Shown in pieces: positions 4,147 through 44,266 of a stretch of DNA of 64,000 nt (its first letter is position 1; each line of letters opens with the position of its first letter). Both the position numbers and the translations under genes were made by a program. The stretch is from Thiothrix subterranea (GTDB lineage: Bacteria; Pseudomonadota; Gammaproteobacteria; Thiotrichales; Thiotrichaceae), in contig NZ_CP053482.1 in assembly GCF_016772315.1 (NCBI RefSeq), positions 434,001 through 498,000 of the forward strand, in the 5' to 3' direction. The notes under the pieces are model-generated. The model saw only the letters and a program-made list of their open reading frames with translations, searched no databases and had not been told where the DNA came from.

Positions 4147-5349
4147 ATGCTCCGTACTGTTACAAGTTTCGCCTTACTGGCATCACCCTTGGCGGGATTC
4201 GCCCACACCGACGAACACAAGCACACACCCGATCCGACCACGACCACCGAAGTCGGCGCGGCTGCCAGCATGACTTGGCATTCGCAAGGCGCGGCAGACA
4301 GTGACGGGCTGTGGCGCATTCCCGGTGTGATGATGGGCGGGCATTCCTTACCCGTTGAAAAAGGCGGCAAGCTGGACGATGCCATCCTGTGGGGTTCACA
4401 CCGTTTGGGCGAACGCACCACCGTCAGCGCCAAAGCCGGGGTACACAATGACGGCACAACCAGTATTGAACTGGAAAACCTAACGCTGGATTACCAACCG
4501 AATACGCCCAAACCCATTACCGTCAGCGCGGGTTTGCTTGAACCGGCGTTTACCCCCTCCGCACACCATCACCCCAGCACCGACACCTTTGCGGAAAGCA
4601 CCTTGCTGGCGGATGCGTTCTGGGGCAGAAGCATTCATGACACGGGCGTGCGCGTCGCAGGCAACCCCACTGCCAACACCGAAGTCGGGGTCGAAGTGTG
4701 GAACGGTGACTTTTTCCCTGCCAGCAAGGGCGAAGGGGCGCAGGATATTTACGCCAAATTCAACCACGAACGCGCAGGCTGGGATTTAAACGGCGGCGCA
4801 TGGGCGATGCAGGCGAATGCGGCTAAACGTAGCGATGACCGCTATTTTTCCACCGACCATTCTCACACCCCCAGCGGCGTTACGTTAACTGATGTGCAAT
4901 TCAGCGGCGATACCCAAATGGCTGGTACGTGGTTTGCTGTTTCTGCCCCGGTAACATCTGGCGGCATCAAAGCAGGCTTGCGTTACGAAGCCGCCCAAGC
5001 GCAATCCAGCGGTACACTGTCGGATACCACCCGCACCGCCAGCTATGATAGCGATCACTTGGCCTATGCAGTCACTCCCAGTTTGGAATGGCGCAAGCTA
5101 AAACTCAGTTACCGGCTGGAAAAACTGTCACTGGAAAACGACCTGAGTGGTAATGGTGCACAAGTGTTAGCTGAAGAAGCCAACCTGATCACTGCTGCCA
5201 ACCCCAAGCGCGAAACCGTACAAGTGAATTGGCAACTCAATAAAAAAATCGGCGCACGGTTGGCGTATACCCAAGACAATACACTGGCGGGAAGCGATGA
5301 TCGGGTCAGTGTTGGGCTGGTGTGGCAGGACACCTTATACAAAAAATAG
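4147..5349 (+). CDS. Predicted outer-membrane beta-barrel protein of the MbnP/MbnH operon
   Basis: A 400-residue exported protein: the signal peptide MLRTVTSFALLASPLAGFA is followed directly by a His-rich mature N-terminus (HTDEHKHTPD). The remainder alternates polar and hydrophobic residues in beta-strand fashion and ends in an aromatic-containing strand (VGLVWQDTLYKK), as expected for a porin-like barrel. Further His clusters occur at SAHHHPSTD and STDHSHTPSG, which may bind metal. It begins 3 bp after mbnH, so it is the third gene of the operon. A role in moving copper or a copper complex across the outer membrane is inferred from context; no named porin family was recognised. Confidence 0.6.
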   Translation: MLRTVTSFALLASPLAGFAHTDEHKHTPDPTTTTEVGAAASMTWHSQGAADSDGLWRIPGVMMGGHSLPVEKGGKLDDAILWGSHRLGERTTVSAKAGVHNDGTTSIELENLTLDYQPNTPKPITVSAGLLEPAFTPSAHHHPSTDTFAESTLLADAFWGRSIHDTGVRVAGNPTANTEVGVEVWNGDFFPASKGEGAQDIYAKFNHERAGWDLNGGAWAMQANAAKRSDDRYFSTDHSHTPSGVTLTDVQFSGDTQMAGTWFAVSAPVTSGGIKAGLRYEAAQAQSSGTLSDTTRTASYDSDHLAYAVTPSLEWRKLKLSYRLEKLSLENDLSGNGAQVLAEEANLITAANPKRETVQVNWQLNKKIGARLAYTQDNTLAGSDDRVSVGLVWQDTLYKK

Positions 5350-5441
5350 GCCGCGTTATTCCACTCATGCAGTGTCCAACTGCACTATAGTTAAAGAGAT
5401 GCACGCATCTATGCTGCATTTCTATCAGCGAGGGCAACACC

Positions 5442-6062
5442 ATGAAACAATTATTAGCCAGTGCGTTACTGTTCACTGCGACAGCGAGCGTGCAAGCCAC
5501 GGTTTCCGAATACACCGAATTTTTTATCCCTTACGAACGCACGCAAAGCGGTTACGTGTGTTTAGACGAGCAGCTCATGGAGGCTGAATTCGGCATCCCC
5601 TTAGCCAGCTTGATGGAAGGGATTTTTTCCGAAACCAAAACCCTGCACCAAGTATTAGGTGGGACAAGCACTTATCAAAACATCAACTTATTGGTGAATG
5701 GCACGACCACGATTCCCTACATTTACAACTTTGACCGTTACACCAGCAGCGGGGTGTTTGAATATTCCTTCACACTGGATATGGCAGCATTTAACACCTT
5801 AAATGGCGCAACCGTTGCCGGGCGGCAAAAGACCAAAAACACCGCGAAATTGGCGCTCATTGCGATGCTCAAAACCGCAGAAGCCATACACGGCGCAGGT
5901 AATTTCAGGGTGTGGGTAAAGTTCAATAACTTGCCATCACAAACGGGTTTGAGCGGGAGTCTGGTGCACAGCGGTGGCGTGGATTGGCCTACCTGGCCTT
6001 ATACCGCATCGAGCAGCATTTACAGCACGTATCGGGCAGAGATGCTTGCAGCCGGGTGTTAA
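5442..6062 (+). CDS. Secreted protein of unknown function
   Basis: A 206-residue protein with a clear signal peptide (MKQLLASALLFTATASVQA) and a mature part rich in Tyr, Thr and Ser. Only two cysteines remain after cleavage, near residue 40 and at the very C-terminus, which could pair in the periplasm. The ATG is preceded by GCGAGGGC, an acceptable ribosome-binding site. The gene is separated from the previous one by 92 bp, within which TGCAGT-GTCCA-ACTGCA forms a small hairpin. It meets the next gene tail to tail with no gap (TAA at 6060-6062 directly abuts the opposing TGA). I recognise no family. Confidence 0.55.
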   Translation: MKQLLASALLFTATASVQATVSEYTEFFIPYERTQSGYVCLDEQLMEAEFGIPLASLMEGIFSETKTLHQVLGGTSTYQNINLLVNGTTTIPYIYNFDRYTSSGVFEYSFTLDMAAFNTLNGATVAGRQKTKNTAKLALIAMLKTAEAIHGAGNFRVWVKFNNLPSQTGLSGSLVHSGGVDWPTWPYTASSSIYSTYRAEMLAAGC

Positions 6063-8326: not shown

Positions 8327-8334
8327 TGTCGACA
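8327..8334. promoter_or_regulatory. TGTCGACA operator candidate, pckA site 1
   Basis: A perfect palindrome inside TATTGTCGACAG. Its centre is 22 bp upstream of site 2. It is the most distal of three copies in the 253-bp rhlB-pckA divergent intergenic region, about 155 bp before the pckA start codon. Confidence 0.6.
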
Positions 8335-8348
8335 GGCTTTTATTAATA

Positions 8349-8356
8349 TGTCGACA
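8349..8356. promoter_or_regulatory. TGTCGACA operator candidate, pckA site 2
   Basis: A perfect palindrome inside ATGTCGACAAT. Its centre is 22 bp from site 1 and 105 bp from site 3, that is about two and ten helical turns. It is followed by another small palindrome, GTAAATTTAC, at 8373-8382. Confidence 0.6.
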
Positions 8357-8453: not shown

Positions 8454-8461
8454 TGTCGACA
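8454..8461. promoter_or_regulatory. TGTCGACA operator candidate, pckA site 3
   Basis: A perfect palindrome inside CATTGTCGACAC, ending 26 bp before the pckA ATG and just upstream of the GGAGG ribosome-binding site. At this position a bound protein would block the promoter or early transcription. I could not assign a convincing -35/-10 pair for pckA. Confidence 0.6.
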
Positions 8462-8487: not shown

Positions 8488-10101
8488 ATGAGTACAACTG
8501 CTACACTGGCACAACACCTTGCCAGTACGTTGGGGCTTAAAAACACCAATAACCTTTACTGGAACCAGTCTTCCCCGGTTCTCTACGAACAAGCCCTCAA
8601 CCGCAGCGAAGGCAAAATCAGCGAAGATGGCGTCTTTGTCGCCTACACGGGTACATTTACGGGTCGCGCCCCCAATGACAAATTCATTGTGGATGACGCT
8701 GGCTCACACGATAAAGTGTGGTGGGGCAAAGTCAACAAATCACTCACCGAAGCACAATTCGACCAAGTATTGGCAGATGCCCTTCAGTTTTTGGAAGGTC
8801 GTGAATTATTCGTCCAAGACTTGCTGGCAGGCGCGAGTGAAGCCGACGAATTGCCAGTACGCATTATTTCGCAATACGCTTGGCACGCCCTGTTTGCGCG
8901 GAATATGTTCATTCGCCCCGACGACTTGAACCGCACCTTAGGCGTAGCTGAACCCAAATTCACCGTCATCCACGTACCGGATATGCAAGCCGACCCGGAA
9001 AAGCACGGCACGCATTCGGGCGCATTCGTGCTCTTGAACCTGACACGCGGGCTGATCTTGATTGGTGGCACGCATTACGCGGGCGAAATCAAGAAATCCA
9101 TTTTCTCGGTGCTCAACTATTTGTTGCCACAGCGCGGTATTATGTCGATGCACGCTTCTGCCAATGTTGGCAAAGATGGCGATGTGGCGATTCTGTTTGG
9201 CTTGTCCGGCACGGGTAAAACCACGCTCTCGGCAGACCCAAATCGCGCCCTGATTGGCGATGACGAACACGGCTGGAGCGATAACGGCGTGTTCAATCTG
9301 GAAGGCGGTTGTTACGCCAAAGTGATTAACTTGTCGGCAGAACAAGAGCCGATGATCTACAAAACCACCCAAACCTTCGGCACGGTGCTGGAAAACGTGG
9401 TGATGGATCAAGCGACCCGCAAGCTGAATCTGGACGACAATAGCATCACTGAAAACACCCGTGCCAGTTACCCGATTACGCAAATTCCGGGCGCGTTATA
9501 CCCCGGCAAAGCCGGTCATCCTAAGCACATTATTATGCTGACCTGCGATGCGTTTGGCGTATTGCCACCGATTTCCAAGCTCACCACTGAGCAGGCGATG
9601 TACCACTTTATTTCCGGTTACACCGCCAAAGTCGCGGGTACAGAAAAAGGCGTGACGGAACCCACCGCGACCTTCAGCACGTGCTTTGGTGCGCCCTTCA
9701 TGGCGTTGCACCCCTCGGTGTATGCGGACTTGCTCGGTGCGAAAATCAATGAACATGGCGTATCTTGCTGGCTGGTCAATACCGGCTGGACAGGCGGCGG
9801 CTATGGCGTGGGCAAACGCATGAATATTCATCATACTCGTAGCATGGTGAATGCCGCGTTGAATGGGGATTTGGATCAGGTTGATACCCGCCGCGATGCG
9901 ATTTTCGGTTTGAACATCCCGGTTTCGTGCCCGGATGTGCCGTCCGACGTATTGGAACCGTCATCGACATGGGCGGATAAAGCGGCATATACCACGAAAG
10001 CGACCTATCTGGCGTCACTGTTCCACAAGAACTTTGCGCAATACAGTGCGGGTGTTTCTGCTGCTATTTGCGCGGCTGCGCCATTGCAAGGCAAGGAATA
10101 A
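8488..10101 (+). CDS. pckA: Phosphoenolpyruvate carboxykinase (ATP)
   Basis: A 537-residue enzyme, the normal length for ATP-dependent PEPCK, which converts oxaloacetate and ATP to PEP, CO2 and ADP in gluconeogenesis. The kinase P-loop GLSGTGKT is at 238-245, followed by the metal-binding segment LIGDDEHGW; RGIMSMHASANVG precedes the P-loop, and the C-terminal half holds TAKVAGTEKGVTEPTATFSTCFG and the NTGWTGGGYGVGKRM block, all typical of the family. GGAGG precedes the ATG. The upstream region carries three TGTCGACA palindromes shared with the sucB promoter, implying common control with the TCA cycle. A GC-rich hairpin with a short T stretch follows the stop. Confidence 0.95.
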   Translation: MSTTATLAQHLASTLGLKNTNNLYWNQSSPVLYEQALNRSEGKISEDGVFVAYTGTFTGRAPNDKFIVDDAGSHDKVWWGKVNKSLTEAQFDQVLADALQFLEGRELFVQDLLAGASEADELPVRIISQYAWHALFARNMFIRPDDLNRTLGVAEPKFTVIHVPDMQADPEKHGTHSGAFVLLNLTRGLILIGGTHYAGEIKKSIFSVLNYLLPQRGIMSMHASANVGKDGDVAILFGLSGTGKTTLSADPNRALIGDDEHGWSDNGVFNLEGGCYAKVINLSAEQEPMIYKTTQTFGTVLENVVMDQATRKLNLDDNSITENTRASYPITQIPGALYPGKAGHPKHIIMLTCDAFGVLPPISKLTTEQAMYHFISGYTAKVAGTEKGVTEPTATFSTCFGAPFMALHPSVYADLLGAKINEHGVSCWLVNTGWTGGGYGVGKRMNIHHTRSMVNAALNGDLDQVDTRRDAIFGLNIPVSCPDVPSDVLEPSSTWADKAAYTTKATYLASLFHKNFAQYSAGVSAAICAAAPLQGKE

Positions 10102-42861: not shown

Positions 42862-44076
42862 TCACACATCCAACACCAAGCGAACCGGGTTTTCAACCAA
42901 TTCCTTGATGGTTTTGAGGAAGGTGACAGCACCTTGACCGTCGACAATGCGGTGGTCATACGAGAGAGCCACATACATCATCGGGCGAATAACAATCTGA
43001 TCATTGACAACGACAGGGCGCTTCTGGATCGCGTGCATCCCCAGGATCGCGCTTTGAGGAGGGTTTAGAATTGGGGTTGATAGCAACGACCCAAAAACGC
43101 CCCCGTTGGTTATAGTGAACGTACCACCAGTCAGATCGCCCATATCCAGCTTACCTTCACGAGCTTTGGCAGCGTAACCGGCAATGCCGGATTCGATGTC
43201 AGCTAAGCCCATGTTTTCGGTATTACGCAGGATCGGAACGACCAGACCGCGATCAGATGACACGGCAATACCAATATCGCAGAAGCCGTGGTAAACAATG
43301 TCATTGCCATCAATTGAGGCATTGACTTCAGGGAAACGTTGCAGCGCGACAGCGGCTGCTTTCACGAACAGAGACATAAAGCCCAGTTTCGCTTTGTGTT
43401 TTTTCTCGAATGCGTCTTTGTATTCGTTACGCATATCCATCAACGGCTTCATGTCGATTTCGTTGAAGGTGGTCAGCATCGCGGTGGATTGCTTGGCGTA
43501 CATCAGACGTTCGGCGATGCGGGCGCGGAGGCGGGTCATGGGAACGCGCTGTTCCATGCGAGCACCTGAAGCAGAAACGGCAACAGTTGGTGCAGGTGCG
43601 GCGGCAACGGGTGCTGGAGCAGCAACAGGAGCTGGCGCGGCAGCAGGTTTCGCGGCAACAGCGGCTTGCACGTCTTCCTTAAGAATACGGCCTTGCTTGC
43701 CAGAACCATCGACATCAGCAGCCGTCAGATTGTTTTCTGCCATCAGTTTGCGGGCAGCGGGGGCGGTTTGTGGTTCAGTGCTTGCTGCTGGAGCAGCAAC
43801 GGCGGGGGCAGCTTCGGCTTTTGGAGCTGCTGCTACTGCGCCAATGGTCATACGACCCAGCAATTGACTGCTAATGACGGTTGCACCCGCTTGCTCAATA
43901 ATTTCGGTGAGGACACCATCGGCAGGAGCAGGTACTTCCAGCACCACTTTGTCGGTTTCGATTTCAACCAGTACTTCGTCCTGTTTGACACTATCACCGA
44001 CTTTTTTGCTCCATGTCACCACGGTAGCATCGGCGACGGATTCCGGCAGTACCGGGGTCAGAATCTCACTGCTCAT
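42862..44076 (-). CDS. sucB: 2-Oxoglutarate dehydrogenase E2, dihydrolipoyl succinyltransferase
   Basis: A 404-residue E2 protein with one lipoyl domain (about 1-75; lipoylated Lys in [14 protein letters not shown]), an Ala/Pro-rich linker, a peripheral subunit-binding domain (about 110-145, [30 protein letters not shown]), a second Ala/Pro linker and the catalytic core, whose motif [12 protein letters not shown] supplies the active-site His and Asp. The start [15 protein letters not shown] is typical of SucB rather than AceF. I chose the ATG at 44076, preceded by AAGGATGTG; the in-frame codon at 44112 adds an unrelated extension. The sucA (E1) gene is absent. Its promoter carries three TGTCGACA sites and one degenerate copy. 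Confidence 0.95.
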
Positions 44077-44144
44077 CTGCACACATCCTTTTTGGTAGGT
44101 ATCGAATAGCATTTCTGGAATGCTTTTTTACTAATCTTATGAAT

Positions 44145-44152
44145 TGTCGACA
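44145..44152. promoter_or_regulatory. TGTCGACA operator candidate, sucB site 1 (overlaps -10)
   Basis: A perfect palindrome within AATTGTCGACATT. On the minus strand it shares its first base with the end of the TATAAT box (44152-44157), so a bound protein would cover the -10 and the transcription start. Its centre is 52 bp from the next copy. Confidence 0.65.
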
Positions 44153-44180
44153 TTATAGGGTTTTTTATGCACAAGGTCAA
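44152..44180 (-). promoter_or_regulatory. Near-consensus sigma-70 promoter of sucB
   Basis: On the minus strand: -35 TTGACC (44180-44175), a 17-bp spacer and -10 TATAAT (44157-44152). The predicted start lies near 44145, about 70 bp upstream of the sucB ATG. The -35 lies inside a degenerate operator copy (TGTTGACC, 6 of 8 matches), and the -10 touches a perfect copy. Confidence 0.8.
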
Positions 44181-44196
44181 CAAAAAACCTTCATAT

Positions 44197-44204
44197 TGTC
44201 GACA
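44197..44204. promoter_or_regulatory. TGTCGACA operator candidate, sucB site 2
   Basis: A perfect palindrome within ATTGTCGACATAT, upstream of the sucB -35. Its centre is 52 bp from site 1 and 62 bp from site 3, close to five and six helical turns. Confidence 0.65.
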
Positions 44205-44258
44205 TATCCCTTATGTTTGCGCTAAAAACGCTGTCATACAATAACATAAATACAACAT

Positions 44259-44266
44259 TGTCGACA
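44259..44266. promoter_or_regulatory. TGTCGACA operator candidate, sucB site 3
   Basis: A perfect palindrome within CATTGTCGACACC, the most distal copy, directly next to the pnp terminator. It has the same flanks (CATTGTCGACAC) as pckA site 3. Confidence 0.6.

Follow-up and report, generated by a model that had tools for sequence, protein, structure and literature searches.

Helically phased operators before sucB and other TCA-cycle genes of Thiothrix, probably bound by a PrpR-related GntR repressor

Copies of the octamer TGTCGACA upstream of sucB in Thiothrix subterranea probably represent operators of a GntR/FCD protein, a paralogue of PrpR encoded divergently from sucA, which would repress sucB and other genes related to the tricarboxylic acid (TCA) cycle from helically phased sites, most simply by means of a small DNA loop. 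A probability of roughly 0.7 is assigned to this reading. Thiothrix species are sulfur bacteria that grow on mineral or organic substrates, and a candidate regulator can now be named for their TCA, glyoxylate and phosphoenolpyruvate (PEP) carboxykinase genes. The pairs of sites attributed to this repressor subfamily, placed at 5, 6 or 7 turns with half-turns avoided, also amount to a natural experiment on helical phasing, repeated in many separate genomes. Other TCA-cycle genes, as well as related regulators in Gammaproteobacteria, follow the same spacing rule, which suggests a repressor holding its promoters from both sides.

The sucB promoter and its operators

The window, that is, the whole stretch of 64,000 nucleotides analysed, contains on its minus strand a sucB promoter in which TTGACC and TATAAT are separated by 17 bp, with agreement to the consensus in 11 of 12 positions (Table 1). 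The earlier note had described it as a near-ideal sigma-70 promoter, and its conservation in relatives bears out this description. It had also seen TATAAT running into a perfect TGTCGACA; indeed, hexamer and proximal operator share one base, the final T of the former being the initial T of the latter. Two more perfect copies are found further upstream, and the distances between centres, 52 and 62 bp, correspond to 4.95 and 5.90 helical turns at 10.5 bp per turn, in agreement with the five and six turns originally proposed. The fuller half-site (ATTGT) lies on the same side in all three sucB operators (44145-44266), despite the symmetric core. A search of the window against Rfam gave no structured-RNA match.

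Table 1. Promoter elements, operators and likely regulated genes in the window.
Feature	Coordinates	Strand	Remark
pckA operator 1	8327..8334	+	Perfect octamer
pckA operator 2	8349..8356	+	22 bp beyond operator 1
pckA operator 3	8454..8461	+	105 bp (10 turns) beyond operator 2
pckA, PEP carboxykinase (ATP)	8488..10101	+	Likely regulated gene
sucB, 2-oxoglutarate dehydrogenase E2, start MSSEIL	42862..44076	-	Likely regulated gene
Proximal 12-mer region	44143-44154	-	Spans about -9 to +3, assuming a transcription start near 44145
Proximal operator TGTCGACA	44145..44152	-	One-base overlap with -10; kept in 18/18 genomes with regulator orthologue
-10 hexamer TATAAT, sucB promoter	44152..44157	-	Consensus match and conservation
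-35 hexamer TTGACC	44175..44180	-	17 bp from -10; no operator copy
Second operator	44197..44204	-	52 bp (5 turns) upstream of proximal site
Third operator	44259..44266	-	Another 62 bp (6 turns) upstream

The -35 hexamer had been placed within a degenerate operator copy, and this claim is rejected. The candidate, TGTTGACC, has two mismatches and its match consists mostly of the hexamer itself; the two bases that precede it are TG in only three near-identical genomes, with GA, AA, GG, CG, GT and others elsewhere. Since TTGACA and TCGACA are one base apart, a -35 hexamer naturally resembles half of the operator. The proposal of a repressor lying over the promoter is well supported, by conservation in 18 genomes and by the phase statistics, as regards the -10 and an upstream site in helical phase with it, but is not kept for the -35. 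It is unlikely that the sites serve pnp, because they lie beyond the terminator-like hairpin of this gene and because the pair upstream of sucB is also present in genomes whose regulator gene is about 5 kb or less from sucB, for instance adjoining a sucA-sucB pair.

Conservation of the sucB operator pair

The two sites nearest to sucB have a spacing of 52, 53 or 54 bp in 17 genomes, of which 15 belong to the genus and two to other genera of the family; in an 18th, G001, in which sucB was read in two frames, two sites are separated by 53 bp. Of the genomes read, all 18 that have an orthologue of the regulator carry the pair, while the 600 bp preceding the sucB match contain no site in any of the 12 without it; these counts come from related genomes and are no independent trials. 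This tracking of the orthologue by the pair is one reason for regarding the octamers as operators. Spacer identity to the window falls as low as about 40%, and the proximal site lies between 45 and 196 bp from the sucB ATG; therefore, it is the length between the sites that has been held, and not the sequence or the leader.

The register between operator and promoter is also kept, with TATAAT or a one-base variant leading into the site in 16 of the 17 sucB promoters tested; in genome G008, whose pair is 54 bp apart, TATAAT is shifted one base up. A conserved sigma-70 promoter would have its -35 and -10 hexamers 16-18 bp apart, and the sucB promoters agree with this, the -35 being clear in most genomes and weak in G014, G006, G010 and G002. 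The third operator appears at 62-63 bp in eight of the 17 aligned genomes.

Helical phase of the sites

Six copies of TGTCGACA are found in the window against 0.9 expected, and none of 100 shuffles reached this number. The whole genome (4.08 Mb) contains 40 copies, compared with about 58 extrapolated from the window shuffles, that is, no enrichment as such. The unusual feature is the arrangement of the octamers rather than their number: seven pairs of neighbouring copies are spaced by 150 bp or less, where 0.06 would be expected from 40 random positions, and the seven gaps (75, 95, 22, 105, 52, 62 and 74 bp) are all near multiples of 10.5 bp. When all of them are taken unselected, V is 0.88 at 10.5 bp (p = 1e-4) and the best period is 10.55; after scanning periods from 8 to 14, p is 0.004. 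Same-face spacings are seen at 2, 5, 6, 7, 9 and 10 turns, and paired operators in helical phase, as expected of a looping repressor of the AraR kind, are present. The spacing rule is clearly broken once, upstream of aceA in genome G008 (L137), where the sites are 111 bp, or 10.6 turns, apart.

The phasing is not special to sucB and extends to prpR-type genes. A class-wide draw of 27 prpR-type loci was surveyed for sites with TGT-NN-ACA arms and at most three mismatches to the 12-mer, a search that gave 0.013 sites per shuffled region. Counted once per family and value in 15 gammaproteobacterial families, the pairs are 23, 51, 53, 53, 62 (six times), 63, 63, 64, 71, 73, 73, 74, 75 and 116 bp apart; except for the 23 and the 116, they fall into classes of 51-53, 62-64 and 71-75 bp. 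Their best period is 10.45; phasing this good did not arise in any of 200,000 random sets, though the resulting p-value is a guide only, its null being uniform spacing regardless of shared ancestry between families. No pair was found at seven of the 27 loci. In Thiothrix, prpR has a conserved operator of its own, GATTGTCAACAATC, and in most species a copy of TGTCTACA or TGTCAACA precedes it by 63 bp (6 turns) (L047:1178-1240, L160-L174).

Predicted regulon

Targets were located by pattern search and region retrieval. Intergenic octamers lie before sucA and the regulator gene, sucB, pckA, mqo, aceA, icd/aceK, the gene of an ActP-like sodium:solute symporter, nqrA and ppa; the remaining octamers of the genome are mostly intragenic. 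The site near ppa (G000:C1:2426230) is single and was excluded from the target count, and several targets carry a single site only. ATTGTCGACA is present on at least one strand in 13 of 15 regulon sites. Sites at conserved positions precede both pckA and aceA in 16 of 16 genomes, and sites are found before nqrA and before actP in 13 of 13. For the main icd gene the figure is 12 of 14, G008 having only a 70%-identical icd type without a site and G014 being unread, while mqo has a site upstream in each genome in which its start was located. In about half of the genus, a weaker AGTCGACA divides the 105 bp before pckA into 52 and 53 bp.

Two of these genes showed irregularities. The actP-like gene of T. 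subterranea (L020:4276-7266) is split by two short transposase-looking ORFs (4960-5867), whereas one open frame of about 600-660 amino acids is present in relatives. In genome G003 (L123, L124), the pckA match falls into two parts separated by about 1.3 kb, which gives the impression of an interrupted gene.

The candidate regulator

The candidate is a protein of 229 amino acids whose gene, divergent from sucA, lies outside the window (G000:C1:238149-238835). It matches the Pfam families GntR (2.5e-15) and FCD (7.6e-28), both above cut-off, and has the architecture of the FadR/FCD subfamily of the GntR family, a GntR winged helix-turn-helix at the N-terminus and an FCD domain at the C-terminus; the protein of T. 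caldifontis is 98% identical. Three perfect sites in the stretch between sucA and the regulator gene are kept in 16 of 16 members of the genus, and most genomes have two copies of TGTCAACA there as well. The location of the regulator gene among these perfect sites, together with the genome-wide clustering and phasing, is another reason for the operator assignment. In Thiothrix fructosivorans, the regulator and sucA are found on a record titled plasmid pTfr446 (L178, NZ_JAFMPM010000005.1), a 446-kb replicon.

Sequence comparison identifies the candidate as a Thiothrix-group paralogue of PrpR, the repressor of the methylcitrate cycle. Its nearest solved structures are 7xp0 and 7xp1 (E 6e-61; 50% identity to 7xp0), the former of which we take to be Pseudomonas aeruginosa PmiR, presumably the same protein as PrpR (PA0797). 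PmiR reportedly senses 2-methylisocitrate, going by the title of the work of Cui et al. in 2022 (cited in PMC13086498). The Thiothrix PrpR is encoded in front of prpB-prpC. No linkage to prpB/prpC was found for the regulator gene, which in Thiothrix is linked to sucA, another protein being encoded at the prp locus. Nor does the regulator fall within a clade of prp-linked proteins: in the tree, the sucA-linked proteins and their relatives from Thiolinea and Thiofilum form one group of their own (96/100), separate from the Thiothrix PrpR (96/92) and from the prp-linked proteins of other Gammaproteobacteria. D138, H142, H187 and H209 are invariant in 17 regulator orthologues and kept in PrpR, and presumably represent the Asp and three His of the candidate metal-binding set of the FCD domain. 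Beside the metal histidines, the regulator differs from PrpR in having F143 for Y and H208 for R; as a guess, these changes would fit a related tricarboxylate ligand. The core of the regulon sites is identical to that of the operator predicted for PrpR, ATTGTCGACAAT.

Proposed mechanism and alternative readings

The repressor would occupy about -9 to +3 of sucB, where RNA polymerase must melt the DNA, and would in this way block promoter melting. A second dimer would bind five turns upstream, on the same helical face and outside the -35, so that the -35 and -10 would be enclosed by two occupied sites, a small DNA loop being the simplest form of this. Sites phased in the same way probably place sucA, the regulator's own gene, pckA, aceA and mqo under the control of this protein too, and single sites probably do so for icd/aceK, actP and nqrA. 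Derepression would occur upon build-up of a metabolite, perhaps isocitrate, citrate or 2-methylisocitrate. From homologues, we infer binding by the regulator, repression and the class of ligand; judged from geometry, the phasing is best read as looping, and the sequence would also fit other same-face arrangements. In analogy with AraR, the same-face spacing points to contact between the bound dimers.

Alternatively, the protein might bind as proposed but form no loop: the distal site, around -55, could contact RNA polymerase (even as an activator), or each dimer could be obliged to face the polymerase. Such a view suits sucB itself, where the distal site is just upstream of the -35, a usual position of activators, and where the phase of the proximal site is fixed by the -10. 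However, a common polymerase geometry is less likely to account for the rule of 5, 6 and 7 turns before prpR-type genes in many families, or for the 105 bp before pckA, and this explanation is considered rather unlikely, although distal contact with the polymerase is a competitor to be taken seriously.

Even less probable is that PrpR proper is the main occupant of the sites and has spread to the TCA genes, the sucA-linked paralogue acting only locally. The half-sites are identical and the regulator is 43% identical to the Thiothrix PrpR, but three of the 12 genomes without the orthologue (G018, G024 and G031) carry a PrpR-type protein (45-52% identity) and no sucB sites, which argues against PrpR alone accounting for them. 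In addition, the Thiothrix prpR operators mostly have CA, rather than CG, at the centre (usually TGTCAACA, but TGTCGACA in two genomes), and the sucA-linked protein keeps the distinct residues S53, N63 and N72 in its DNA-binding domain. As a point against the preferred reading, the two paralogues could share sites, given these two prpR operators and the occurrence of TGTCAACA also between sucA and the regulator gene. Finally, a chance or compositional origin of the octamers, with the promoter alone being real, has next to no probability in spite of their lack of enrichment (40 against about 58), since it is refuted by conservation across three genera and opposed by the phase and the seven pairs against 0.06.

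Repression by the sucA-linked paralogue from phased sites remains the preferred reading. A bolder version of it is offered only tentatively, and is thought possible rather than probable: a duplicate of the methylcitrate repressor in the Thiothrix lineage would have become the master repressor of the TCA cycle, the glyoxylate shunt, PEP carboxykinase, acetate uptake and Na+-NQR, would sense isocitrate/citrate, and would employ whole-turn loops (5, 6, 7 and 10) as a fixed design principle that came down from the PrpR subfamily as a whole.

Comparison with known systems

GntR repressors with in-phase operators are of a known kind. In the literature searched, whose coverage was limited, no matching GntR regulator of TCA genes, nor one in Thiothrix, was found, and nothing was met there on this regulator, on its TCA regulon or on the spacing rule; an earlier report of paired PrpR sites is possible. 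In P. aeruginosa, PrpR (PA0797) is a GntR/FCD repressor of the 2-methylcitrate cycle with the predicted operator ATTGTCGACAAT; it represses prp, and gel shifts show that it binds upstream of its own gene (PMC9765439). The Thiothrix regulator belongs to the same family and shares with it the predicted operator core and the four candidate metal residues, and it is 50% identical to 7xp0. In contrast, it adjoins sucA and not prpB-prpC, forms a separate clade, has F143 and H208 fixed in place of Y and R, and its predicted regulon comprises TCA, glyoxylate and PEP carboxykinase genes.

In Bacillus subtilis, AraR represses strongly from operators that are in phase and suitably spaced, binding them cooperatively and forming a small loop (PMC4218819). 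Both proteins have a GntR-type DNA-binding domain and paired in-phase operators, whereas the C-terminal (effector) domain, the operator and the regulon of AraR are different, and its loop is experimental while that of Thiothrix is deduced. The extension of a catabolic regulator to TCA-cycle genes also has precedents in Shewanella, in which PdhR and PsrA have expanded in this manner (PMC5343134). Nevertheless, PsrA is of the TetR family, and PdhR belongs to a different GntR group, with a site centre of 3 nt instead of the 2 nt of PrpR (PMC4494728).
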